A DNA stretch of 64,000 bases from Candidatus Gastranaerophilales bacterium (GTDB lineage Bacteria; Cyanobacteriota; Vampirovibrionia; Gastranaerophilales; Gastranaerophilaceae): positions 248,001 through 312,000 of the forward strand of contig CALUVV010000002.1 of assembly GCA_944324305.1 (NCBI GenBank), given 5' to 3'. The notes under the pieces were generated by a model. That model ran no database searches. It was not told the DNA's origin and was given only the letters and a program-made list of their open reading frames with translations. The position numbers and the translations under genes are program-made. Below, one piece after another: positions 18,333-61,157 of this stretch. How positions within the stretch are numbered: position 1 is the stretch's first letter; every line of letters starts with the position of its first letter.

Positions 18333-19046
18333 TTAAAAGCTAATTCGTTTAGGATAATTATCAGGTACTTTCCAGCCGTTTATGTAAATAATTGCAGTGC
18401 AGTAGTTGCCGTTTCCTTCTTTACATCCATAATATGCATTAGAATATAGAGTTTGTTCATCTCCATCCCACAAATAAAAATAAGCTTCCATTCCTTTATT
18501 ATACAAATACTTCCAATCTTTATTATTACTAATAGGGTAAAATTGAAAACAAAAAGCACATACTCCAAAGCTTTCATTTTTAGGCAATTTTAAGCATTTT
18601 TCTGCATTTTTCGGAAAAAAAACTACTTCTCTGTTCTGGGTAGCCTGATAAGCAAACGCACTCCCGTCAGAAAAGTAATATAATATTCTTTTTTGTCCGT
18701 CACCGTCAGTTAACTCTTTCTTTTCTATTACTTTTAAATACGGGGCAAGATATTTTTGAAAAGATAAATCGGAAATATCTGACTTATTTATATATACACC
18801 GCCATCATCCGGAGTTTCCTCAATAAAAAAACTCCAATTTTCAACTTCGCCATTTTCATTAACGGAATGCAAAATTGCCTGGTTCATTACAGAATAAAAT
18901 TTTTTTAATCTGGTTTCAACAACGCTTGCCCTGTAATCAGCAATCAGGTTCGGTAAGGTTAATGCAGCTAGAACGCCGATAATACCAAGTGTTATCAAAA
19001 CTTCAGCAAGTGTAAAACCAATTTGGCAGTTCAATTTCATACTCAT
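18333..19046 (-). CDS. Orphan type IV pilin-like protein (XRE-linked)
   Basis: A 237-residue secreted-type protein. The N-terminus carries the prepilin motif G-FTLAEVLITLGIIGVLAALTL; prepilin peptidase would cleave before F11 and methylate it. The helix is followed by ADYRAS...RLKKFYSVMNQAI, shared with the other family members. The C-terminal domain contains about four cysteines and ends NGWKVPDNYPKRISF, a tail signature also in the pseudopilins at 23459 and 28560. It is a single gene, divergent from an XRE regulator at 19151. Its promoter places the transcription start at or next to the ATG. The role (pseudopilus tip, surface binding) is inference; no assembly genes are nearby. Confidence 0.85.
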   Translation of the reverse strand: MSMKLNCQIGFTLAEVLITLGIIGVLAALTLPNLIADYRASVVETRLKKFYSVMNQAILHSVNENGEVENWSFFIEETPDDGGVYINKSDISDLSFQKYLAPYLKVIEKKELTDGDGQKRILYYFSDGSAFAYQATQNREVVFFPKNAEKCLKLPKNESFGVCAFCFQFYPISNNKDWKYLYNKGMEAYFYLWDGDEQTLYSNAYYGCKEGNGNYCTAIIYINGWKVPDNYPKRISF

Positions 19047-23458: not shown

Positions 23459-24259
23459 CTAAAAACGTATCGGATAGTCATCAGGGATTTCCCAGCCGTT
23501 ACATTCAATAAGCATTAAGCACAGAGCGGAATGTCCAGTTGAAGACTTACATTGTGACAGTAACAGGCTTCTGTTGTCAGTACAAGATTTAACTCCCCAT
23601 TTTTCAGCCCAGGGTTTTACATCAACAACCCCTTTAGACAAATCCATAAAAAACGTAAAATATTCTTTACCGCTGATATATTTACTTTTAGTATTTTCTC
23701 TTATCAGTACACCGATTTGCAGTAAACCGCTATTTTCATTTATGCCGTTAGGAACATGAATAGTTTCTCCGGTTTTTAATTTTAAACCGCTTGCATATCC
23801 GCCGTTCATAGTAAAAGAATCGTTACCGTCAGAAGATGAAACATATACTCTATACCCTGCAAGCTCACTTTCACTTATAAAAGAGCTCCCCGGTAAATAC
23901 GGTAAAAAATATTTTTTTATTACATCCGCAGATCCGGCGGGTTCCCAATTTTTCGGCTCACCGTAATCAACTTCGGCAAGCTTTACAACGCTGTTTAATA
24001 CGGATGCAATCCTTTTTAATCTTGTTTCGGCAATATTTTTATTGTGATTTGAAATTAACACAGGCAGTGTCATAGCTGCAACAATGCCGATTATACCTAA
24101 AGTTATTAAGACTTCTGCGAGTGTAAAAGCATGTTTGTGATGTACCATATCACTAATATAACATTTTTTTATTATTTTTTCAACTCTGCAAAAGTTAAAC
24201 GGAGCAGCTGTTAAATTGCCCCCCCCCCCGACTTTTCCGAAAATTAAAGATTTTTTCAT
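23459..24259 (-). CDS. Phase-variable pilin-like protein, ON state (11 G)
   Basis: Read from ATG at 24259 (SD GGGAG, 8-nt spacing), a leader starting MKKSLIFGKVGGGGNL runs through an 11-G tract and joins the prepilin motif HAFTLAEVLITLGIIGIVAAMTLP at about residue 45. A GTG at 24268 is a weaker start. The leader is unusually long for a prepilin, and an internal ATG (MVHHKHAF) just before the motif could serve as a short-leader start whatever the tract length. The C-terminal domain has paired cysteines and ends NGWEIPDDYPIRF, shared with the pseudopilins at 18333 and 28560. No regulator gene is adjacent. Loss of one G would give GCA ATT TAA, a stop. Confidence 0.82.
   Translation of the reverse strand: MKKSLIFGKVGGGGNLTAAPFNFCRVEKIIKKCYISDMVHHKHAFTLAEVLITLGIIGIVAAMTLPVLISNHNKNIAETRLKRIASVLNSVVKLAEVDYGEPKNWEPAGSADVIKKYFLPYLPGSSFISESELAGYRVYVSSSDGNDSFTMNGGYASGLKLKTGETIHVPNGINENSGLLQIGVLIRENTKSKYISGKEYFTFFMDLSKGVVDVKPWAEKWGVKSCTDNRSLLLSQCKSSTGHSALCLMLIECNGWEIPDDYPIRF
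24219..24229. repeat. Homopolymer tract, 11 C (11 G in the gene sense)
   Basis: The tract lies about 30 bases inside the pseudopilin gene and keeps the leader in frame with the prepilin motif. Its sense-strand 3' flank, CAATTTAACAGCTGCTCC, resembles the flanks of the tracts at 48673, 51085 and 61064. Such runs are prone to slipped-strand changes. Confidence 0.9.
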
Positions 24260-28559: not shown

Positions 28560-29243
28560 TTACCATGGATAATCCGGCATAATTTCCCACCCATCTGCCA
28601 TGATTTTTCCGCCGCAGCTGCGTGAATACTCTGTAGACTTTTTAATATTGGCTGCTGTACAAAGATTTTTGCTTCCAAATCCTGATATTACACCATTATT
28701 TATATTTATTATAAACTGAAATACATCTTTTCCGATTACATTAGGCTTTTTAGGACCATTCAAGTCTATTGATAACAGTTGAAGGCGTTGTCTGTTATCT
28801 TCCGTAGAATTTAAATTATACGGTCTTAAATATGCATAAGTTCCGTCACCGTAAATAAAACCGGGCACATTTGCAAATTGTCCGTAATATACATAATTAC
28901 TTTTATTAGATAAACTCGCATAACCTGTAATATCATAACCGCATTCATTCATAGTAGTACACACTTTAATTATCTTTAAATACGGTTTCCAATATGTTTC
29001 AAAATACTTTAAATTATCTTCATAAGAACTCGAAGGCTCAGTAACTGCCCAACTCGAGGCATCACCAAATTCATATTGCGCTTGAACCAGTGCCTGTGCA
29101 AAAGTTGAATATGCCTTCTTTAATTGAGCCGATGTTTGCTTTTTCTGATAATTGGTAATAACTGCGGGCATAGTTAAAGCAGCCACAACACCTATAATAC
29201 CTAGTGTTATCAAAACTTCCGCTAAAGTAAATGCTTTATTCAT
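28560..29243 (-). CDS. Orphan type IV pilin-like protein (XRE-linked)
   Basis: A 227-residue protein with a very short leader (MNKA) before FTLAEVLITLGIIGVVAALTMP. The conserved post-helix region LKKAYSTFAQALVQAQ follows. The middle carries DLNGPKKPNVIGKDVFQF, a motif shared in form (D-x-NG...PN-x2-G-x-D) with the pseudopilins at 33572, 41354, 50339 and 57264; the end reads DGWEIMPDYPW, the tail signature of those at 18333 and 23459. So it links both subgroups. SD AAGGAGC precedes the start. Divergent XRE gene at 29313. Convergent with the helicase, 6 bases apart. Confidence 0.87.
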   Translation of the reverse strand: MNKAFTLAEVLITLGIIGVVAALTMPAVITNYQKKQTSAQLKKAYSTFAQALVQAQYEFGDASSWAVTEPSSSYEDNLKYFETYWKPYLKIIKVCTTMNECGYDITGYASLSNKSNYVYYGQFANVPGFIYGDGTYAYLRPYNLNSTEDNRQRLQLLSIDLNGPKKPNVIGKDVFQFIININNGVISGFGSKNLCTAANIKKSTEYSRSCGGKIMADGWEIMPDYPW

Positions 29244-33571: not shown

Positions 33572-34276
33572 TTAAAATTCGATATTGTCTGAATATTTCT
33601 TGTAATTTAATTTATTGTTCACGAAAATGGACTTTAAACATCCGAAATTACTATCATTAGGCTCCAATTTTTTGTCTTGAACTATTATTTGATGCACATC
33701 AGCTCCATATTGATTAGGACCTTTAAATTCTCCGTTTACATCAATAATAACTGTCGCACATCTGGTTTCAGTAACGGTATAAGTTTCACCGGTATAAAAA
33801 CCGTTCTCGTCTTTTTTATTTGCAGTATATGTATACGGAGTGCAATTATCCCGTATATCACGTAAATAGATAGAACTGCCGTCAACATTATTAATTCTCG
33901 GGAAACCGAAATCTTCTAAAGATATTCCTCCTGTACCGTTATTCACAGGAGTTGCAGTCCTCACCTTATATTCGTTCCCGCAGCCTTTATTTTTTGCCGT
34001 ACAAACCTGTGAACCATTATAAAATTTTGCTATATTTTGTGCAATTTGGGCGGCACTTTCTCCGGTAGCAAATATATCAGCATAATTAGTACATTCATTT
34101 TCGGCTTCCATTCTTTTAATTACATTTAAAAAGTTTGTATAACTTTTCTTTGCCTGACTAATTAATACCATGTCTTTGAAGTGTTGAACTAATGCAGGCA
34201 TTGTCAGAGCCGAAACTACTCCGATCACTCCGAGTGTCACGAGAACCTCTGCTAATGTAAATGCTTTTTTGCACAT
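33572..34276 (-). CDS. Orphan type IV pilin-like protein (XRE-linked)
   Basis: A 234-residue protein with leader MCKKA before FTLAEVLVTLGVIGVVSALTMP. The region AKKSYTNFLNVIKRMEAE continues the helix. About seven cysteines follow (CTNYAD, QVCTAKNKGCGNEY, DNCTPY, ETRCAT), suggesting disulfides outside the membrane. DVNGEFKGPNQYGAD is the shared motif and nearly matches FDVNGLKGPNQYGAD of the pseudopilin at 50339, so these two are close paralogues. Divergent XRE gene at 34419. The pair sits inside the fatty-acid cluster. Confidence 0.87.
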   Translation of the reverse strand: MCKKAFTLAEVLVTLGVIGVVSALTMPALVQHFKDMVLISQAKKSYTNFLNVIKRMEAENECTNYADIFATGESAAQIAQNIAKFYNGSQVCTAKNKGCGNEYKVRTATPVNNGTGGISLEDFGFPRINNVDGSSIYLRDIRDNCTPYTYTANKKDENGFYTGETYTVTETRCATVIIDVNGEFKGPNQYGADVHQIIVQDKKLEPNDSNFGCLKSIFVNNKLNYKKYSDNIEF

Positions 34277-39358: not shown

Positions 39359-40153
39359 CTATTTCATAAGTTTCATGGTTTTTTCGATAATTTCATTTAA
39401 GCTTTCTGCTTTCAATGAAGCACCGCCGATTAAAGCACCGTCGATATCTGATTTAGACATTTGTTCTTCAATTGTGGAAGGTTTAACGGAACCGCCGTAA
39501 AGAATTCTGATAGAATCAGCAGCTTCTGCTCCAGCTACTTCTTTAACAACTCCTCTAATCATAGCGATAACTCTGTTAGCTTCATCAGCGTCGCAAGTTT
39601 TACCGGTACCGATAGCCCAGATAGGTTCGTAAGCGATTACTGATTTTGCAACATCAGCGGGAGAAATTCCTTCCAATGCAGCTTTAATTTGTCCTGCAAT
39701 CCAGCTGTCTGTAACACCTGCTTCTCTTTGTTCAAGAGTTTCGCCGCAGCAGATAATGGGAATTAAGCCTTCAGCTAAAATAGCTTTTGCTTTTTTGTTA
39801 ATCATTTCATCTGTTTCCGAGAAATACTGTCTTCTTTCGGAGTGACCGATAATTACGTAATCACATCCTGCATCTTTCAACATTTCAACAGAAATTTCAC
39901 CTGTATATGCGCCAGATTTTTCCCAGTGGCAGTTTTGACCCGCAATAGAAATTTTGTTTCCGCCGCATCCGCAATCACATCTGACAGCTTCTACTGCTGC
40001 AATTGATGTAAATACAGGAGCAATGACAACTGTAGGCAATTCAACCGCTGTATAATCTTTTACAAAATTTTTAACCCCTTCAAAAACTTCTTTAGCTTCT
40101 GAACGCAATAAATTCATTTTCCAGTTTCCTGCAATAATAGGTTTTCTAGACAT
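39359..40153 (-). CDS. tpiA: Triosephosphate isomerase
   Basis: A 264-residue glycolytic enzyme. Substrate Lys in GNWKMN, catalytic His in IIGHSERRQYF, catalytic Glu in AYEPIWAIGTGK, phosphate loop ILYGGSVKP. Slightly longer than usual because of a Cys-rich insertion CDCGCGGN near residue 60. SD AAAGGAGA precedes the start. Monocistronic by its terminator. Confidence 0.96.
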   Translation of the reverse strand: MSRKPIIAGNWKMNLLRSEAKEVFEGVKNFVKDYTAVELPTVVIAPVFTSIAAVEAVRCDCGCGGNKISIAGQNCHWEKSGAYTGEISVEMLKDAGCDYVIIGHSERRQYFSETDEMINKKAKAILAEGLIPIICCGETLEQREAGVTDSWIAGQIKAALEGISPADVAKSVIAYEPIWAIGTGKTCDADEANRVIAMIRGVVKEVAGAEAADSIRILYGGSVKPSTIEEQMSKSDIDGALIGGASLKAESLNEIIEKTMKLMK

Positions 40154-40223
40154 AATATTCTCTCCTTTTCCTTTAATTAATTATTATTATATGAGGAAAA
40201 TATTTTATTGCAACGAGTTAGAC

Positions 40224-40252
40224 TTGAAATTTATAAAAACATAGGTTATAAT
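40224..40252 (+). promoter_or_regulatory. Near-consensus sigma-70 promoter
   Basis: TTGAAA (40224-40229), a 17-base spacer and TATAAT (40247-40252) stand with no protein-coding frame downstream on the plus strand. This points to an RNA gene. Confidence 0.7.
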
Positions 40253-40258
40253 AAAAAA

Positions 40259-40351
40259 GAAGGGCGAGAGGATTGCGCTCCTCTCTTTAAAAGCCCCGTT
40301 ATTTGAGTTTAAGCGTTAGTATTATCAGAAAGATAAGCACTAACGCTTTTT
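40259..40351 (+). ncRNA. Candidate small RNA between tpiA and the DGR
   Basis: The predicted ~93-nt transcript begins near 40259. It has a hairpin GAGAGGA/TCCTCTC (40266-40285) nested in GGGC (40262-40265)/GCCC (40293-40296), and ends with a long stem AAGCGTTAGT (40311-40320)/ACTAACGCTT (40339-40348) followed by T's, which acts as terminator. It does not match 4.5S, 6S or tmRNA as far as I can see. The remaining gap to 40520 shows no frame or strong structure to me. Confidence 0.5.
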
Positions 40352-40520
40352 CAGTTACACTGAATTCCACTCTATCACCCCCTTTCCTCTATCGGTTTAA
40401 CAAATTTGAAGTTTGCGCCGCAGAGGTAAGTTAATGATATCAGGGCTTACCCGCTTTTTATCTTATATTTTTACAAGAAAAAAGTCAATATTATTAAAAT
40501 TATAGTATTATATTCACAAC

Positions 40521-40547
40521 AAAAAAAGGGTATCAACCCTTTTTTTT
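40521..40547 (-). terminator. Terminator right after DGR template repeat
   Basis: AAAAAAAGGGT pairs with ACCCTTTTTTT around ATCA. On the minus strand it begins about 10 bases after the template repeat, so the template RNA ends here. Confidence 0.9.
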
Positions 40548-40556
40548 AATTTATCA

Positions 40557-40678
40557 CCTGACGCAGCGGACATTGTTCCCATTGGACTTAGAGTTCCTGT
40601 TGCGGTTGCCATTGTTGAAATTCTGGTTCCAGCCCAACTCTGCGGAAGCCTCAGAGGCAGACCAATAGTTGCCTGACG
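40557..40678 (-). repeat. DGR template repeat (TR)
   Basis: This 122-bp segment matches the variable repeat at 41360-41481 at constant offset 803, with 12 mismatches. All 12 are at T on the plus strand, i.e. at A on the template sense strand. It contains 32 such adenines, including 11 AAC/AAT codons when read in the target frame. It lies outside any gene and is preceded by a small hairpin (CGCTG-TT-CAGCG). Confidence 0.97.
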
Positions 40679-40803
40679 CTGAACAGCGGATTAACAATCA
40701 TTTATATCGAATCTTTCAATAAAAATGACTTCTGCACATATGCAAAACTTTGGTTGCTATATTTAACAACCACCGCTGACGAGATAAATTTGAGCACACC
40801 CTG

Positions 40804-41178
40804 TTACACCTTGGCATAAGCAGGCTCCGGCTCAGTTTCAAAGGATGATTTCAACCACCCTTGAGCTTGTTTGGCAATCGAATATGTTTTTTCGATTAAG
40901 CAGCAATACTTTGGCTGTGGAATTATTTTCAGATCAAAAGACATCCGCAAAAATAAATCCAAAAATTGAACTTCATTTAAAATTTCATAAATAAAATCTT
41001 TCTTATCTTTACTGCTGTTTGCTTTATAAATCAAAACAAGCAGTTCAATAACATGATTTTGAATTTTTTCGCCTAACGAAAATTTAAAATCCCGCGGAAA
41101 ATCTTTTGTAGTATTCATTAATTCTACAAGCAAATCATATGCCGTTTTGTAAATAGGCAGGTGTTGGTATTGTGCCAT
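40804..41178 (-). CDS. avd: DGR accessory variability determinant Avd
   Basis: A 124-residue, all-helical basic protein of the four-helix-bundle Avd family: LPIYKTAYDLLVELMNTTKDFPRDFKFSLGEKIQ, VLIYKANSSKDKKDFIYEIL, FLDLFLRMSFDLKIIPQPKY and LIEKTYSIAKQAQGWLKS. Avd forms a pentamer that binds the RT and template RNA and is needed for mutagenic retrohoming. SD AGGAG precedes the start. It lies between target and TR as in the classic element. Confidence 0.93.
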   Translation of the reverse strand: MAQYQHLPIYKTAYDLLVELMNTTKDFPRDFKFSLGEKIQNHVIELLVLIYKANSSKDKKDFIYEILNEVQFLDLFLRMSFDLKIIPQPKYCCLIEKTYSIAKQAQGWLKSSFETEPEPAYAKV

Positions 41179-41353
41179 ATTAATCTCCTATAATCCTTGA
41201 TTTGTAAAGTTTCATGTAGTATTTATTGCCTAAAACTTGTGTTATATAAGGTTTTATGGTATAATAAATGTTGTAAATAATTGTTATTAGGTAATTTAAG
41301 GAGGTTTTACCGCGCAAAAATATTCGCGTTAAATAACTAAATAATTAAATAAC

Positions 41354-42262
41354 TTATCTCCTGACGCAGCGGACATAGTACCCACTGGACTTAGAGGACC
41401 TGCCGCGGTCGCCATTGTGGAAATACTGGCTCCAGCCCAACTCTGCGGAAGCCTCAGAGGCAGACCAATAGGTGCCTGACGTAATTCCAAGAAGATTGGA
41501 GTTAAAGTACATTGCAAGGAGTTCATCTCGATTGGGGAGAGTATATTCAGGGTCGAGTTTTGCACAGCTTGCTCCTGCGTTATAAAAATTTGCAGATGAT
41601 GCATTCTTTTTGTGGACATCCGGAGCCACGGCTTGAGTTCGGATATCAGGATATAATACAGTTACAAAACCTATGTCTTTACCAACCTCATTGGGCTGTG
41701 CAAGCCCGTTCATATCATAAATTGCATTTACACATACTCTGTCCTGTCCCCAATGGTTAGCATCTTTATCATCACTGAGACATGACGGGTTGTAAAACAA
41801 ATTTACAGAATATCCGTTTGCCATGACAAAACCATAACTCGTTGATGACGGATCCGTAACATTACCGCTTGATATACCCGATGCCAATTCTTTAACTGTT
41901 TTAGGCATCGTAATCTTTGTTTCGGCTAATGATAAAATTTTATTGCTTTCCGTTTCAATTCCGCAATCTCTTAAATTATTATTATCGCAAGTTTTAGCTA
42001 TTTGCAGCTGTTTTTTTAAATAGTTCTCGACAAAATCCTGCGCATTCGAAGCGTCTCTTATACTTCCTTTTACAGTTATTAACCTTACAGCTTCCCCGAT
42101 TGTTGCAAGAGCTTTTTTGCGTGCAACTGCATATTCCTTCTCTTTGGTTTCATTAATTAAAGTCGGTAAAATCATTGCCGCAACAACTCCTATTATACCG
42201 ATTGTCAACAACACTTCAGCAAGAGTAAAAGCTTTCTTAATTTTAAAATTCTTTCTTTCCAT
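41354..42262 (-). CDS. DGR-diversified type IV pilin-like protein
   Basis: A 302-residue DGR target. Leader MERKNFKIKKA precedes the prepilin motif FTLAEVLLTIGIIGVVAAMILP (cleavage before F12). The middle has NGLAQPNEVGKD, the motif shared with other pseudopilins here. The C-terminus (about 235-302: YTLPNRDELLAMYF, GTYWSASEAS, YYVRCVRR) is a DUF1566/Lcl-type C-type-lectin fold, a known DGR scaffold. Variable residues are 264, 278, 280, 282, 285, 287, 289, 293, 295 and 296. SD AAGGAGC. Divergent from XRE 42407. It should be exported and displayed with its variable face outside; the ligand is unknown. Confidence 0.94.
   Translation of the reverse strand: MERKNFKIKKAFTLAEVLLTIGIIGVVAAMILPTLINETKEKEYAVARKKALATIGEAVRLITVKGSIRDASNAQDFVENYLKKQLQIAKTCDNNNLRDCGIETESNKILSLAETKITMPKTVKELASGISSGNVTDPSSTSYGFVMANGYSVNLFYNPSCLSDDKDANHWGQDRVCVNAIYDMNGLAQPNEVGKDIGFVTVLYPDIRTQAVAPDVHKKNASSANFYNAGASCAKLDPEYTLPNRDELLAMYFNSNLLGITSGTYWSASEASAELGWSQYFHNGDRGRSSKSSGYYVRCVRR
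41360..41481 (-). repeat. DGR variable repeat (VR)
   Basis: The 3' end of the target gene, matching the template repeat except at 12 template adenines. Ten of 11 template AAC/AAT codons differ: N to T, S, Y, H, D, G, S, S, Y, Y; one AAT is unchanged. The GC-rich end TCCGCTGCGTCAGG before the stop fits an initiation-of-mutagenic-homing site; the next base differs between VR (A) and TR (T). Confidence 0.97.
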
Positions 42263-42308
42263 AAATTGCTCCTTTTTCTTTTTGATTACATATTAGCCAT
42301 ATGGATAA

Positions 42309-42396
42309 ATTATACTACTTATTAGATAATATTGTCAAGTAATTATTACCTAACAGCTCATTAAATTTTATTACAATATTAAGGATAATAATTACT
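42309..42396. promoter_or_regulatory. DGR target promoter with paired operator-like repeats
   Basis: On the minus strand TTGACA (42333-42338), an 18-base spacer and TATAAT (42309-42314) form a near-consensus promoter for the target gene. AGTAATTATTA (42338-42348) and TAATAATTACT (42386-42396) are a perfect 11-bp inverted pair, one overlapping the -35 and one just before the XRE start. This suits looping or cooperative repression by the XRE protein. Confidence 0.7.
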
Positions 42397-42406
42397 CAGG
42401 TGGAGT

Positions 42407-42724
42407 ATGTATCAAATCAAGAACCTCTTAGGAGCAAAAATAAAATCATTACGCAATGAAAAAGGAATTACACAGGAATATTTCGCGGAACAAATCGGAA
42501 TCAGCCCCAGAAGTGTAAGCTTCATCGAAAACGGAAAAAATTACCCTGCTCCTGAAACTCTTGCAGCAATTTGTCAAATACTTAACGTTGAACCTTATAA
42601 ATTATTTTTGTTCCCCATTGAAAAAACTCCGGGTGAAATTAAACGTATTTTAATAAATAAAATTAATGAAGATGATGATTTTGCCCTGTATTTATATGAC
42701 TGTGCAAGACAACTTTTAACTTAG
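42407..42724 (+). CDS. XRE-family HTH regulator inside the DGR
   Basis: A 105-residue protein: HTH at residues about 10-64 (KIKSLRNEKGITQEYFAEQIGISPRSVSFIENGKNYPAPETLAAICQIL), followed by a helical tail. Divergent from the DGR target and sharing its operator region. Its last 62 bases overlap the 3' end of the RT gene in antisense, so transcription of one could interfere with the other. Probably represses the target and itself. Confidence 0.88.
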   Translation: MYQIKNLLGAKIKSLRNEKGITQEYFAEQIGISPRSVSFIENGKNYPAPETLAAICQILNVEPYKLFLFPIEKTPGEIKRILINKINEDDDFALYLYDCARQLLT

Positions 42725-43820
42725 TAAACTCATCGTCACATATAACAAACAGGTTTATACATCGTAAACAGATTTCTTTTCTTAAAATATAACCGTTCGT
42801 GTTTCTAAGCATCCCAAGGTAACTGTTAATTGTTGAAGTAAATTTTTCAAGCTCTTCTTCATAAAACCACTGCTCATTTAACTTTTGTCCGCTGATTATT
42901 TTAAAAATTCTCTTTATTGTTTTTTGCCTGAGACTTGTTCTGTATGGTTTTACGACAAAACCGACAAAGTCTATACCTTTATCAACTTTATTAATTAATT
43001 TTTTATGCTGATGAAGTTCAAGATTAAGCCTTTCTTTAAGAAAAACGGTTAAATCTTTATGTATTTTATTTAAATATTGCGGATTTTTATGCATAATCAC
43101 AAAATCATCAACATATCTGCAATAATATTTACACTTAAGATGATGTTTTATATATTGGTCCAGAATATTCAAATATACATTACTAAAAAACTGGCTTGTC
43201 AGATTGCCTATCGGTAAACCTTTATCTGATGGAGTGTACCAGAGACTTTTATATTTTGGAAGACAGTTAAATTTATATGACGGAGACTTTATGCAGACAT
43301 CTGTTTTCGGGTTGTGAAAAATTACCTGCCTGATAAGCTCCAACATCCATTCTTCATCCACAAACTTTTGAATTTCCGCATATAAAATATTTTTATCAAT
43401 ACTCACAAAAAAATTTTTTAAATCTGCTTTCAAAAAGTAAGCTGTTTCAGTATAATTATTTGTTATCGATGCGGCATATGCTTTAACCGACTTAACCGCG
43501 TTTGTGGTTCCTCTGGCGGGAATACAGCTGTATGTGTCTTTAATAAACCTTTTATAAAATCTGTCTTTAATCTCATTATAAATCAGATGGTGGACAATTC
43601 TGTCTCTAAAGTCCGCAGCCCAGACCTCTCTTGGTTTTGGGTAAAGCACAATGAAACATATACTCTGCCCTATTTTATACTCCCCGCTTGCAAGATCTTC
43701 ATACAGCTTCAAAAGATTTTGCTCAAGATTATACTCAAACATCAATGCATTAACGGTATTTCTCTTATGCTTCCTGCAATCAAGATAAGCTTGAAAAAGC
43801 TTTTCAAAAGTTAATCCCAT
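42663..43820 (-). CDS. DGR reverse transcriptase
   Basis: A 385-residue RT. FLKADLKNFFVSID holds the first catalytic Asp (about 133); LPIGNLTSQFFSNVYLN (202-218) is the DGR/retron-like motif 4 with Gln; CRYVDDFVIM (236-239 YVDD) is the active site; GIDFVGFVVKPY follows in the thumb region. No maturase or endonuclease domain is present, which excludes a group II intron. It copies the template RNA with adenine infidelity. It is upstream of the target and has its own promoter 5 bases before the ATG (no SD). Confidence 0.95.
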   Translation of the reverse strand: MGLTFEKLFQAYLDCRKHKRNTVNALMFEYNLEQNLLKLYEDLASGEYKIGQSICFIVLYPKPREVWAADFRDRIVHHLIYNEIKDRFYKRFIKDTYSCIPARGTTNAVKSVKAYAASITNNYTETAYFLKADLKNFFVSIDKNILYAEIQKFVDEEWMLELIRQVIFHNPKTDVCIKSPSYKFNCLPKYKSLWYTPSDKGLPIGNLTSQFFSNVYLNILDQYIKHHLKCKYYCRYVDDFVIMHKNPQYLNKIHKDLTVFLKERLNLELHQHKKLINKVDKGIDFVGFVVKPYRTSLRQKTIKRIFKIISGQKLNEQWFYEEELEKFTSTINSYLGMLRNTNGYILRKEICLRCINLFVICDDEFTKLKVVLHSHINTGQNHHLH

Positions 43821-43825
43821 ATGAT

Positions 43826-43855
43826 ATTATAGAAATCCTGAAAATTATTATTCAA
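43826..43855 (-). promoter_or_regulatory. RT promoter, leaderless layout
   Basis: TTGAAT (43850-43855), an 18-base spacer and TATAAT (43826-43831) end 5 bases before the RT ATG on the minus strand. The transcript would start at or beside the start codon. Confidence 0.55.
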
Positions 43856-43891
43856 TTAGACGAAAAGGTATTTTCATGATAAAATAAACTT

Positions 43892-44482
43892 ATGTTTACA
43901 GGGATTGTGGAAGAAACAGGATTTATAAAAAGCTTTGACGGCAAAAAACTCGTCGTTGAATGTTCAAAAGTTCTTGAAGGAACACAGATCGGCGACAGCA
44001 TTGCAATTGACGGCTGCTGCCAGACAGTTGTCTCAATCGGCACAAACACGTTTCAGGCAGATGTAAGTTCTGAAACTTTAAAAATTACAAAAGGATTTAA
44101 AACAGGCGAATGCGTTAACCTTGAACGCGCCTTAACACCTCAAAGCCGTATGGGCGGACATATTGTTCAGGGACACGTTGACGGAACCGCAAAATACTTA
44201 GGAGATATGACTTTTGCAGTTCCCAAAGAACTTGATAAATACATTGTTTATAAAGGTTCAATTACCGTAAACGGCGTAAGTTTAACCGTTTCTAAAAATC
44301 AAAATAATACCTTCAGCGTCGCAATTATCCCTCACACGCTTGAAAATACAAACCTCAAATTTCTTAAAACAGGCGGTCTTGTGAATATCGAAACTGATAT
44401 TTTGGGGCGGTATGTTGAAAAATTTTTATCAACGAAAAATAATAATATTACAGAAGATTTTTTAAAGGAAAACGGGTTTTAA
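43892..44482 (+). CDS. ribE: Riboflavin synthase (alpha subunit)
   Basis: A 196-residue protein with two lumazine-binding repeats: MFTGIVEETGFI...IDGCCQTVVSIG and MGGHIVQGHVDGT...ITVNGVSLTVSK. It converts 6,7-dimethyl-8-ribityllumazine to riboflavin. One base separates its stop from ribBA. I see no FMN riboswitch in the 71 bases before the start. Confidence 0.95.
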   Translation: MFTGIVEETGFIKSFDGKKLVVECSKVLEGTQIGDSIAIDGCCQTVVSIGTNTFQADVSSETLKITKGFKTGECVNLERALTPQSRMGGHIVQGHVDGTAKYLGDMTFAVPKELDKYIVYKGSITVNGVSLTVSKNQNNTFSVAIIPHTLENTNLKFLKTGGLVNIETDILGRYVEKFLSTKNNNITEDFLKENGF

Positions 44483-46787: not shown

Positions 46788-48712
46788 TTAGAAGAAAAAT
46801 TTTACAGGCTGTATCTGTTTTACACGGCACATCGAATTGTAATTGCCGGTACATTCACTTGCCTTTGTATAGGATGTTCCGTTTTTGCAATAAGGGGTTG
46901 CATCGCCCACGTAACCCGAGATACAAGCACCTTCTTTAAACGGAACACTCTTAGCAAGCCATTTTGTCGCACGCTTCCCGCCGGAGTAATTCTCGTTCTC
47001 CACGCTGACTTGCAAATGACGAGAACTGTCACCACCGCTTTGATTTAAATTAGATGTATCGTAGGCGGGAATGATTTTACCGGATAAAGTTATGTAGAAG
47101 GGATAAACATCACTCCATAATTGAGAATCACCTTTGGCGCCGTCGATATCTACATAAACAGTATAACCGTAAGAGTTGGTATTAGGTACGCCGTCATAAG
47201 AACCGCCTTGAGTATTATTTGCTAACATAGAGATGGCACTTGCATCGCTATGCATATTATAAATGCGCAAACCGTTACGGAGAGTGATATCAGGTGTTTT
47301 GGTTGAAAAGTCGGTTGTGCCATTACTGATTACACTGCCGCTGCATACACCGCTGCCGCTCATGATATTAGCGTGACGTTCAAATAATTTACAGAAATTT
47401 TTACCCTTACGAGGTAAAGTACGGGGGGATGGAATACATTTACATTGATCATCACTCCATTCATAAGTCTCGTCGCTGCAAGTACGGTTAAAGCCTGTAA
47501 TATCACTGATTATTCCTGTTTCACTGTCACAAGTTTTTCCGCAGCCCGGGTCAGAAGGACATTGACTGATACAGTTACAACTTGAATTTAAATGCTGGCC
47601 GGAAGGGCAAGTTTTTACAGAGCCTGTTAAACTGCAGGTGTTTTCATCCCATGCCTGCCCGCACGGTATTTGCGCAGGTTTATTATTACAAGACGGGCAT
47701 TCCGAATAACTTCCTTTTTTAGAACCGTCCCAACAGGTTACGGAAGGCGGACAAGCAGATTGGCTTACTGCATAACTGCCATCCCAACAGGTGACCTTTG
47801 AAGGACATTTTGACGCATTAACAGCATAACTTCCGTCCCAGCATTCTATTTTGGGAGGGCAATCAGCTGTTGTATCGGCTTTTGAGCCATCCCAGCAAGT
47901 AACCTGTGGATTTTTCTCACATTTGCAGGTACTTTCATTCATTGTATAACCGAATTGGCAGGCAAGTTGATAACCTTTAAGCTTACAATTCTGTGCATCC
48001 CAGGTTTGTCCGCAGGGTATTTTTGCGGGTTTATTAGTACAAGCAGGACATTTTGACAGACTTGTAGCGTAACTCCCGTCCCAGCATTCTACTTTGGAAG
48101 GGCAATCAGCTGCTGTATCGGCTTTTGAGCCATCCCAGCAAGTAACCTGTGAATTTTTCTCACATTTGCATGTTATAGGATTTAATGTTCCTAGCAAACA
48201 AGCTACTGCACCGCAAGAACCTCCGACAGGCCCTCCAATATCTACTTTTTGAGGTTCACATTTACAGGTTCTAGCGTTCCAAACAGTACCTTTCGGACAA
48301 GTAGCAAAAGATTCCGTTCCGCCATCCCAGCCCGTACCCTGACTGCAGGAATCTACCGGATCTACAGGCGTAGTGACAGTATTATATGCGAATACAGGCT
48401 GAAAGAAGTATGCAAGCAATCCTTTGTTTTTTAAATCAGGTTTATGTGCCTGTTTGTAATCATCATCTTTAGGATCCCAATCCGCAAGCATTTCTGTTGA
48501 GATAGAACGTAATGTTGAATAGGCAGAATAATATGTGTAAGATACAACGTTATCAAGTTTGGCTCTGGTAATACCGATTGTAACAGCAACAATTACCGCA
48601 ATAATAAGCATCACGATAATAATTTCTGCCAATGTATAGGCTAAAACAATGGATTTAGGAGCTTTTAGGCTGCCCCCCCCCCGCGAAACACGCGATTAAT
48701 CAACTTTTTCAT
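46788..48712 (-). CDS. Phase-variable pilin-like protein with Cys-rich repeats, OFF state (10 G)
   Basis: ATG at 48712 (SD AAGGAGC) begins MKKLINRVFRGGG; with the 10-G tract here the frame ends at once (...GGGAA, stop). One extra G joins it to KAPKSIVLAYTLAEIIIVMLIIAVIVAV, the prepilin helix, and a frame running to 46788 (about 640 residues). After the helix come Cys-rich units of the type CWDGSxA...CP (about residues 130-350 of the long frame), then PGCGKTCDSETG, and a globular C-terminus (about 440-614) with YVDIDGAKGDSQLWSDVYPFY. No regulator gene is adjacent. The long frame is intact, so OFF looks reversible rather than decayed. Confidence 0.8.
47582..48242 (-). repeat. Coding repeats of CWDGS / CP units
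   Basis: The pair CWDGSKAD(T)AADCP and CWDGSYA...KCP occurs twice, with a longer unit (NKPAKIPCGQTWD...CK) also duplicated and further single CWDGS copies, at least six CWDGS in all. DNA copies are nearly identical in places (for example the GTTACTTGCTGGGATGGCTC type), so recombination could change the copy number. Confidence 0.8.
48673..48682. repeat. Homopolymer tract, 10 C (10 G in the gene sense)
   Basis: Lies 30 bases after the ATG at 48712. Its 3' sense flank CAGCCTAAAAGCTCC places TAA in frame when the tract has 10 G. Confidence 0.9.
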
Positions 48713-57263: not shown

Positions 57264-57989
57264 ATGGGTAAGGGTTTTACGTTAGCTGAAACTTTGGTTA
57301 CAATCGGGATTATAGGAGTTGTTGCTGCTTTGACTATGCCAAGTTTGATTGTAAAACATAAAGAAAAAGAAACTTGTGCCAGGCTAAAAAAAGCTTATTC
57401 AACAATTTCACAGGCATTTATTTACGCAGTTCAGGAAAAAGGCACTCCCGATGAATGGGGAATGCTTGAAAAATATAATCCCGAAACACATATTATCATG
57501 GCAAATAACTTTAAGCCTTATATGAATGTAATTCAAGATTGCACAGGTCAGGACATAACTTTTGTCAACAAAAACTGTTTTGCTAAAAATGACTATCATG
57601 TTACAGCCCCGAATACTTCAACAGCATTTGTAATAAATGACGGAATAAGTTTGTCTTTCAGAAATTGGGAAGAATCCTGCAATCAAACAATGGGCAGCAT
57701 AAAGAATGTATGCGGCTCAATTGTTGTAGATATAAACGGCTTAAAAAAGCCTAATCAATTGGGATATGATATCTTTTATTTCTATATGACCAAAGAAAAA
57801 ATTGTACCTGTCGGAACAAAAGATGATCGTCTAAGTTTCAAATCAAGTTGTGACAGACATAACTCCAGCCCCATACCAAACTTTGACGGAAAGTTTATAG
57901 GCTGCGCCGCATGGGTTATATATAATGAAAATATGGACTACCTGCACTGTGATGATTTGGACTGGGGAGTAAAAAATAAATGCAAATAA
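57264..57989 (+). CDS. Orphan type IV pilin-like protein (RHH-linked)
   Basis: ATG at 57264 (SD AAAGGAGC) gives 241 residues with leader MGKG before FTLAETLVTIGIIGVVAALTMP. The next part RLKKAYSTISQAFIYAVQEKG matches the pseudopilin at 28560. The body has DINGLKKPNQLGYDIFYF and about nine cysteines (CTGQD, NCFAK, SCNQT, VCGS, SCDRH, GCAAW, LHCDD, NKCK). Divergent from a ribbon-helix-helix gene. It ends immediately at the start of the convergent UDP-xylose synthase stop. Confidence 0.87.
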   Translation: MGKGFTLAETLVTIGIIGVVAALTMPSLIVKHKEKETCARLKKAYSTISQAFIYAVQEKGTPDEWGMLEKYNPETHIIMANNFKPYMNVIQDCTGQDITFVNKNCFAKNDYHVTAPNTSTAFVINDGISLSFRNWEESCNQTMGSIKNVCGSIVVDINGLKKPNQLGYDIFYFYMTKEKIVPVGTKDDRLSFKSSCDRHNSSPIPNFDGKFIGCAAWVIYNENMDYLHCDDLDWGVKNKCK

Positions 57990-59076: not shown

Positions 59077-61157
59077 TTATTTTATTTTTGCTTCAAGTTT
59101 TTCAATGCGGACTTTCAGCTCCTGATTTTCTTTTTCAAGTGTTGTTATTCGTCTGTCAAGCTCTTTTATTGCATTTACCGCTGCATAGAACATATCTTCA
59201 AAACGGATTGTTAAAAATCCGTCTTTGCCTTTTTTAACTGCATCGGGAAAGACTTTTTGCAAATCCTGTGCGATTACACCGACATGAAGTGTTTTAGTTT
59301 TGTCTTTTTTAAAGGTATAATTAAAAACCTTAAGTTCGCGAATTTTATCTAAACCGGATGTAAATTCCTTGCCGACATATTTTAAACGCAAGTCTGAAAA
59401 ACCTGCACCCCCGTTGGAAAAATACGCGTCAAAACCATGACCGCTTTCGATGCTGTAGCGTAATGAAGCGTTTTGTTCATCTTCTTTTGATCTTTCCAAA
59501 ACTCTGTAACCTGTTACATAATTGCCGTATCTGTCAACTATCCAGGATGAAATCAATCCTTTTACTATTAAATTGCCGTTTATAACAACAGTTGAATCAC
59601 TTGCACTAAACTGATTGCCATCGTGAGCATATACACGATTACCGGTATTATGAACTTCCAAGACAGCCGCACCGCCGTTGAATTTTGACTGGCCGCCGAT
59701 AAAGACACGTTCATAATCGTCACGAGCCCAGCTTGAACCGCTTTTGGGACCCGAATTAGCCCCTATACAAGTTTTGTTAGTACCTGTAGCGTATTGGCAA
59801 GCATTATAACCTAAAGCAGTATTATAATTATTAACGGCCTTAGCATTATTTCCGATAGCAACAGCACTATGACCGCTTGCATCGGCAGAATACCCTAAGG
59901 CTGCTGAATAATTTCCGCCATTTACTTTACTGTTTTGTCCAATAGCAACACTTTGACTGCCTTGCGCTTTTGCCTGATCACCTATTGCGATAGATGCATG
60001 CTCCGTTGCTCTTGAAAATTCTCCTATAGATATTGCATAATTCGCACTGGCACCAGATTGACTACCCAGGGCTACAGACGCATAAGAAGAAGATTCTGCG
60101 CTTGGTCCAACTGCAACTGAACGATAAGCTGTTGCTTCTGACCAACTGCCCAAAGATAAAGATCCATCTCCGGAGGAAATTGAACTGGTACCCATGGCAA
60201 TTGCGTCTTCATCAGAAGATGTTGCTTTTTCGCCTATTGATATAGAACTATCTGCAATGGCAGTTGCATTACCTATGGCTATTGCTTTTGCATTTAAAGT
60301 AGAAGAATTTGCCCCAACAGCCACAGAACCGGTACCGTTTGCATAAGAAGAAAAACCTACAGCGGTACTGTTAGTAAAAGTTGTTAAGGTTTGATTTTTA
60401 TAATTTGAATTTGCACCTATTGCTACATTACCGTCACCATTACCGTACCATAAAGCGTTTGTTCCTAAGGCGACATTGTTTTGACCGCTGCCTTCAGACA
60501 TGGCGTCACCGCCGATTATAGTATTGCTGCCGCCGGTGCCCGATTGATAAGCATTGCTACCGATAGCTACATTATAATGACCGCCAGTATTGGATATCAA
60601 TGCACCGGCACCGATAGCAATGTTACTGCTGCCGCTGGTCACTTGAGTTAAATTATTGGGACCTATACTGATATTATTACTGCCATCAGTTAAGTGGTCC
60701 AAACTACCATTACCTAAGACTAAGTTGGTATCCACAAACTGTAAACGACCCAAGGTAGTATTGTCACGTTTAAATGACAAATGAACGGGCAATGAACTGC
60801 TAGAGTTTAAAATTAAACGCGCTGCATCGTCCGTTTCCAGTTTATTGGGTTGGCCGATCATTGCTATCTGGCTTTCACCGGGACCAAAATAGGCATCAGA
60901 TAAATTCTCAGGTGAATAACGCCAAGGAGACGAACTGTCTGCCTTGCTACGTGTTGTCATGACAGGGGCCATAGCAGCCAAAATTATGCTCATGATGAGC
61001 ATGACGACCATCATTTCTGCTAACGTAAAGCCCGAAAAACCTTTAAAGGAGCGGCTTAAACTGCCCCCCCCCCGGCACTACGTGCGTAGACACCACAACA
61101 CAAGCTGGAGTCAACTTGAGATAACTCGGCATCTGTTTTACTTAATAACTTTCTCAT
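59077..61157 (-). CDS. Phase-variable pilin-like protein with YadA-head repeats and S74 domain, OFF state (10 G)
   Basis: ATG at 61157 (SD AAGGAG) opens a 33-residue leader that stops (...SAGGGAV) with 10 G. With 11 G it reads AGGGGSLSRSFKGFSG and joins FTLAEMMVVMLIMSIILAAMAP, the prepilin helix, giving about 693 residues. Residues about 110-440 of the long frame are YadA/Hep-type head repeats (SVAIGxxSxA, AIAIGNATAIADSSISIG). Residues 540-645 match the S74 intramolecular chaperone (SDLRLKYVGKEF, HVGVIAQDLQKVFP) ending in a coiled coil. S74 domains trimerise and self-cleave in phage tailspikes; here cleavage is not certain. The join of pilin, adhesin head and chaperone is unusual. Confidence 0.82.
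61064..61073. repeat. Homopolymer tract, 10 C (10 G in the gene sense)
   Basis: Lies 84 bases after the ATG at 61157. The sense 3' flank CAGTTTAAGCCGCTCC places TAA in frame with 10 G. Confidence 0.9.

Follow-up and report, generated by a model that had tools for sequence, protein, structure and literature searches.

A complete diversity-generating retroelement with a predicted prepilin-lectin target in a Gastranaerophilales bacterium

A complete diversity-generating retroelement (DGR) lies in a 64,000-nucleotide stretch of DNA from Candidatus Gastranaerophilales bacterium (the window; GCA_944324305.1, contig CALUVV010000002.1, positions 248,001 to 312,000), comprising a reverse transcriptase (RT), an Avd protein, a 132-nt template repeat (TR), and a target gene with a variable repeat (VR) at its 3′ end. 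In DGRs, the TR RNA is reverse transcribed with adenine errors and the cDNA replaces the VR. We consider it probable that, in this element, the RT and Avd copy the TR with random adenine errors into the 3′ end of a prepilin-lectin gene, and that the product, displayed on a type IV pilus-like filament, serves as a hypervariable tip for binding. The RT, target, Avd, and TR all occupy the minus strand, and a helix-turn-helix (HTH) gene within the cassette occupies the plus strand. The main parts are:

40214..43870, minus strand: whole cassette (3657 bp), its ends placed by comparison with relatives; also present in the sister species (genome G001)
42663..43820, minus strand: DGR-type RT, 385 aa
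41354..42262, minus strand: target gene, putative prepilin-lectin, 302 aa
42071..42223, minus strand: codons of the long N-terminal helix (residues 14-64) of the AlphaFold2 model
41357..41686, minus strand: codons of the C-type-lectin-like end (about residues 193-302)
41350..41481, minus strand: VR, 132 nt, with 11 AAY-template codons
41346..41365, minus strand: VR end, candidate initiation of mutagenic homology (IMH) site; the TR differs here at two bases in both the window and G001
40804..41178, minus strand: Avd, 124 aa
40547..40678, minus strand: TR, 132 nt

The TR and VR align at an offset of 803 with 14 mismatches in 132 nt, 13 of which fall at TR adenines (A>G in six, A>T in four, and A>C in three); with 37 adenines in the TR, the binomial probability of 13 of 14 mismatches at adenine is 7e-7. 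The 14th mismatch is a T>A change at the repeat end. A preliminary description of this DNA had likewise proposed a complete DGR with template and variable repeats, but it placed the VR at 41354-41500 rather than 41350-41481 and counted 32 template adenines, whereas the TR has 37, 31 of them within codons 264-301. VR residues templated by AAY codons (264, 278, 280, 282, 283, 285, 287, 289, 293, 295, and 296) permit 15^11, or about 8.6 x 10^12, combinations, and these 11 variable residues would be the ones to bind a ligand. A second target in the window's own genome (G000) was rejected, as the TR there matches nothing beyond itself and the one VR; the count of target homologues in G000 at E <= 1e-15 does include a second, which is absent from the matches listed. 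The TR/VR end difference is alike in the window and G001, and at the T/A site also in another genome of the family (G104). The TR of a further family genome (G091) ends in AGATAA, the VR type, which means that the window's end difference is not universal.

By family match, motifs, and best solved relative, the RT appears to be of the DGR type. It scored 65.1 bits against RVT_1 (cut-off 29.6) and matched phrog_1423 (RT, 1.5e-105), and its sequence contains GNLTSQ and YVDD, which we take to be DGR motifs; the preliminary description had already named YVDD and a DGR motif 4. Its best solved relative is 8ub7_A (4.1e-40), presumably the DGR RT of Bordetella phage BPP-1. The reading frame is intact, and the whole genome holds this one RVT_1 match. 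PADLOC labeled the RT with generic RT and defence-associated RT (DRT) models; we did not adopt a defence role. Avd, also correctly named from the outset, scored 58.3 bits against bAvd (cut-off 40) and matched phrog_3206 ('Avd protein of DGR', 1.9e-25), with a score of 60 bits against NCBIfam Avd, below that cut-off of 80, and no match in a phmmer search against solved chains.

In the sister species, the cassette is syntenic. Between the window and G001, the RT, HTH gene, Avd, and target body diverge by 8.3%, 9.4%, 9.1%, and 10.2%, respectively. The TR differs by one substitution and one gap in 132, and the VR by 17 substitutions in 132, 16 of which fall at TR adenines. The 17th (41435) repeats the sole TR substitution (40632; 41435 - 803 = 40632), so a single base change reached both repeats, the comparison being compatible with either direction.

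Natural homologues of the target vary in the same manner, mainly at template-adenine codons, as the preliminary description had anticipated. Within the species of G001, P0001 (a 231-member sequence cluster) and the target at locus L008 are identical up to residue 277; their seven VR residue differences all fall at codons that read AAY in the TR of that species. Five homologues from another close group (P0003, P0005, P0007, P0009, and P0010) are identical at residues 9-261 (253 body residues) in all 10 pairs, with 7-11 of 38 VR residues differing between any two. Taking the window TR as the template, their 101 pairwise differences comprise 95 at AAY codons, six at other adenine codons, and none at codons without adenine, alleles being indistinguishable from paralogues in this set. 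Across 15 mutually close homologues that kept the VR, picked from 120 listed (430 found), residues at AAY codons took 7.6 states on average, compared with 1.6 for other codons containing adenine, 1.26 for adenine-free VR codons, and 1.16 for the body. The VR of P0007 lies near the unmutated template, with Asn at 10 of 11 AAY sites and the last residue missing, and may be a fresh TR copy or an assembly chimaera with the TR.

The target protein begins with a class III signal peptide (KKAFTLAE; F+1 and E+5), and cleavage is predicted just before F12. The prepilin start that had been proposed is supported by TIGR02532 (19.0 bits, cut-off 16.3) and by N_methyl in the genome scan (23.4 bits, above cut-off), but not by N_methyl on the protein itself (19.6 bits, Pfam cut-off 21.2). 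Likewise, the proposed DUF1566/C-type-lectin end agrees with the predicted fold, although Lcl_C, which we take to be the later name of DUF1566, reached 29.2 bits (E 1.2e-6) and so fell below the Pfam cut-off of 34.9; PF07603 is annotated on several target homologues in a precomputed column. Structure prediction of the 302-residue target, suggested earlier as a check, gave an AlphaFold2 model (predicted local distance difference test score, 90.1) with a long, putatively pilin-type N-terminal helix and a C-type-lectin end, the latter resembling Legionella Lcl in fold matches. The target profile matches both pilins and Lcl, and its alignment to mature type IV pilins begins at F12.

Candidate pilus genes are present in the genome, namely a PilB-like gene (contig C2:8469-9641) adjoining a PilC-like gene (C2:7240-8217), a second PilC-like gene on contig C7, and one prepilin peptidase (C1:103267-103659). 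N_methyl matches in the window itself lie at 18957-19031, 24068-24139, 29172-29240, 34205-34273, 42167-42238 (the target), 57270-57335, and 60970-61038. In the mechanism that we propose, TR RNA would be converted to cDNA with adenine errors, which would replace the VR of the target. The product would then enter the membrane as a prepilin, be cut before F12 by the prepilin peptidase, and join a type IV pilus-like filament as one of its minor subunits. Its bulky end would fit a pilus tip, as argued for modular pilins in the accessible part of PMC8179133.

Both halves of the system are found more widely in the family. The RT was found at E <= 1e-25 in 46 of 383 family genomes (14 of 41 genera) and target homologues at E <= 1e-15 in 111 of 383 (27 of 41 genera), with at most six candidates scored per genome for the latter. 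Seven of 20 fetched RT loci (L071-L076 and L078) carry a local repeat pair with mismatches mainly at the adenines of one copy, the pair at L073 having three mismatches, two at adenine. Remote repeats also occur, in other genera of the family. A whole-genome search of G104 surfaced a VR at C1:250421 matching a TR at C1:340794, 90 kb apart, with nine of 10 mismatches at TR adenines. Among 18 stretches with paralogues in G104, G112, and G004, we noted target-to-target matches only and nothing TR-to-VR-like, and the TR of G077 had no match in G004 or G249.

Larger sets were seen in three genomes. G040 has one TR and eight VRs on seven contigs, with 15/16, 11/17, 14/15, 11/21, 15/15, 14/19, 10/24, and 14/24 mismatches at TR adenines (nominal p 5e-11 to 0.031). 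G091 has one TR (C30:20261-20404) and 31 further matches; 27 loci holding most of these were fetched, and 28 stretches of at least 80 nt were aligned. In these 28 VR-like ends, 428 of 858 mismatches fall at TR adenines, compared to 29% expected, with a divergence of 0.38 for adenines and 0.16 elsewhere; 19 ends reach a nominal, uncorrected p < 0.05 and nine show no bias at that level. G189 has 20 TR matches, many at contig ends. As read from their sequences, the prepilin-lectin genes of G091 and G189 form a large set that is dispersed over the genome. In the dispersed-target survey, 13 of 29 frames with a VR showed prepilin motifs, some of the frames being cut off by contig ends and others mis-chosen; for G091, nine of 28 showed them (two blank, 16 with frames off the stretch end, and one without a frame). 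We raise, tentatively, the idea that single-template DGRs of this family diversify dispersed type IV pilin-lectins in trans, with one TR and one RT serving up to about thirty scattered prepilin genes, such that the pilus tips of a cell form a self-mutating library. This dispersed repertoire is the least expected part of our analysis and could conceivably be the bacterial counterpart of a receptor repertoire; the window would hold the one-target form of the system.

Some observations fit readings other than an active DGR whose product is displayed on a pilus. Scoring 150 of 211 candidates in the 2.2 Mb genome gave at least 146 N_methyl matches, a very large prepilin set beside its one peptidase and beyond the needs of a single pilus; the N-terminal part of the target, taken alone, gave weak fold matches to solved pilins and no Foldseek match at E <= 0.001. 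Both would suit a different, in our view rather unlikely, reading in which an active DGR acts on a prepilin-lectin that stays outside any pilus, as a pseudopilin or membrane-held lectin, with the prepilin signal serving membrane insertion or export only. Set against this are the alignment of the target profile with solved pilins from the mature N-terminus, the PilB-like and PilC-like assembly genes and prepilin peptidase, and the modular-pilin plan described elsewhere (PMC8179133, accessible part). It is improbable that, with the same element and display, the benefit is escape from phages or host recognition and not the gain of new ligands. Against escape, the variable residues lie within an Lcl-like lectin-type domain, the usual binding scaffold of DGRs; in its favor, the target has no known ligand, and pilus tips are known phage receptors, with one case given in the accessible part of PMC8179133. 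That the element is a relic, its VR variety stemming from paralogue recombination or ordinary selection, is very improbable given the intact RT, the TR matching only itself and one VR in its own genome, its near constancy while neighbours diverge 8-10%, and the VR differences at template-adenine codons, despite a target homologue in G002 (51% identity) with no RT detected at E 1e-20 and many VR-like ends in G091 that differ at non-adenine sites too. Because the adenine bias in G091 is weaker, with none at the nominal level in nine of 28 ends, this set likely includes older paralogues out of the TR's reach. An active DGR with a pilus-displayed target is the reading that we retain.

Further features in and around the element are:

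42407..42724, plus strand: Cro/C1-type HTH protein, 105 aa; HTH_3, 63 bits; 62-nt overlap with the RT 3′ end
42338..42396: inverted repeat with perfect 11-nt arms (42338-42348 and 42386-42396); adjoins the target promoter
42309..42338, minus strand: sigma-70-like target promoter, 12 of 12 consensus bases, spacer 18; a consensus match alone
43826..43855, minus strand: sigma-70-like promoter before the RT, 10 of 12 consensus bases; a consensus match alone, with 20 sites found and 15.1 expected
40521..40546, minus strand: terminator-like hairpin 3′ of the TR; symmetric, and assigned to the plus strand by the terminator scan

The HTH gene lies between the target and the RT, divergent from the target, whose promoter-like site touches the inverted repeat; neither this gene nor the cassette ends had been listed in the preliminary description. 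Given this position, the promoter and inverted repeat, and the presence of HTH homologues at 14 of the 123 loci searched (nine genomes), the HTH protein is probably a regulator of the target, with the inverted repeat as a possible operator; a counterpart with 9-nt perfect arms is found at L008, the G001 locus. As for the terminator suggested in the preliminary description, the hairpin itself is present and also appears in the RNA fold, but the scan returned two sites against 2.1 expected, leaving it weak alone. The fold of the TR RNA has a z of -2.94 relative to shuffles, an RNA search of the window found one tRNA and nothing else, and an Rfam search of 40100-44100 at E <= 1 gave no match. The BPP-1 DGR has a hairpin just 3′ of its VR; a similar hairpin directly 3′ of the VR can be folded in the window (-9.2) and G001 (-7.5 kcal/mol, as DNA) but not in the flanks of other genera, and was rejected. 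Past the TR, within the cassette, a 23-aa open reading frame (40299-40370, minus strand) encodes a hydrophobic peptide behind a strong ribosome-binding site. It is identical in the sister species (L008 from 6523) and, we presume, resembles the small membrane peptides of type I toxin-antitoxin pairs.

Frames neighboring the cassette were read by eye as what we take to be fabH, plsX, rpmF, tpiA, ribE, and ribBA, and, because these resemble housekeeping genes, we regard a prophage origin as unlikely. In the genus set of 33 genomes, with G000 included, the RT was found at E <= 1e-20 in three (G000, G001, and G004). All 33 matched ribE and 30 ribE loci were fetched: two have an RT beside ribE, 11 have tpiA and no RT between (six of these with a ribE-tpiA gap of 83-92 nt), and in the other 17 no tpiA appeared in the flank that was fetched. 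The simplest reading is that the cassette was gained before the split of G000 and G001. At locus L106 (4152-5141) of G002, a target homologue stands with a divergent HTH neighbor where the RT was not found at E 1e-20 in a genome 89% complete; target and HTH gene may there persist without the DGR. Elsewhere in the window, a 614-aa frame (46788-48632, minus strand) has a hydrophobic start and repeated CWDGS...CP units, with nothing over the Pfam cut-off except a single CXCXC match (E 0.025).

Some target homologues carry the name 'Candidatus Gastranaerophilaceae bacterium', which is classed in the Cyanobacteriota/Melainabacteria group, and others 'Heliobacteriaceae bacterium'. L008 (FR900457.1, 'Fusobacterium sp. 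CAG:439') and L009 and L010 (JAIRZW, 'Heliobacteriaceae bacterium') fall within the genus or family of the window's genome and are apparently misnamed. The name Gastranaerophilales suggests a gut habitat.

The element would likely give cells an ever-changing surface binding tip. If pilus display is true, new adhesive tips could arise without altering the filament, and the role of DGR variation in a gut commensal becomes testable, with VR alleles readable per host from metagenomes and the lectins screenable for ligands. Relatives with eight to about 30 dispersed VR-like pilin genes per template provide a test case for one DGR serving many remote targets. The main text of a metagenome survey (PMC8144416) mentions neither 'pilin' nor 'pili' nor 'Melainabacteria', and our search of the literature on DGRs with pilin, type IV pili, prepilin, or melainabacterial names, with most subscription papers and all preprints outside its scope, found no account of this system. 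DGRs on lectin-fold targets, including 'putative pilins', are already in print, while we found no earlier account of a type IV prepilin version that combines allele evidence with a dispersed repertoire.

The DGR of the Bordetella phage BPP-1 comprises an RT, Avd, a TR, and a VR in Mtd. The window's element shares these parts, a VR that forms the 3′ end of a gene with a lectin fold, change specific to adenines, and a TR/VR end difference, but it is chromosomal, lies between housekeeping genes, has a target with a prepilin N-terminus, and holds an HTH gene inside. The Legionella Lcl C-terminal domain (8q4e) belongs to a protein whose N-terminal part is unlike that of our target, and we know of no DGR link for it. 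Macadangdang and colleagues reportedly described, in 2024, DGRs of Bacteroides that target type V tip pilins. Such DGRs, which alter type V tip pilins in gut bacteria (PMC12632263, in part), resemble the window's element in changing the binding end of a pilus tip protein, whereas type V pilins are lipoproteins with another assembly route and our target starts as a type IV prepilin. Phage DGR targets have also matched a Bacteroides pilin tip (PMC6199706, in part).

DUF1566 lectin-fold DGR targets with 'putative pilin structures' are noted in the accessible part of PMC6642488, citing an earlier survey; the domain kind and pilin link are the same as in our target, but that part offers one phrase, without allele evidence, a lineage, or a dispersed repertoire. 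In Streptococcus sanguinis PilB, a modular type IV pilin with its binding module modelled at the pilus tip (PMC8179133, in part), a binding module is similarly grafted on a pilin module, though it is a vWA module and no DGR is involved. Finally, trans-acting DGR targets were inferred from sequence in Thiohalocapsa PB-PSB1 (PMC10907252, in part), where the targets are putative conflict-system sensors rather than pilins, and where remote VRs match one TR, as in G104, G040, and G091.

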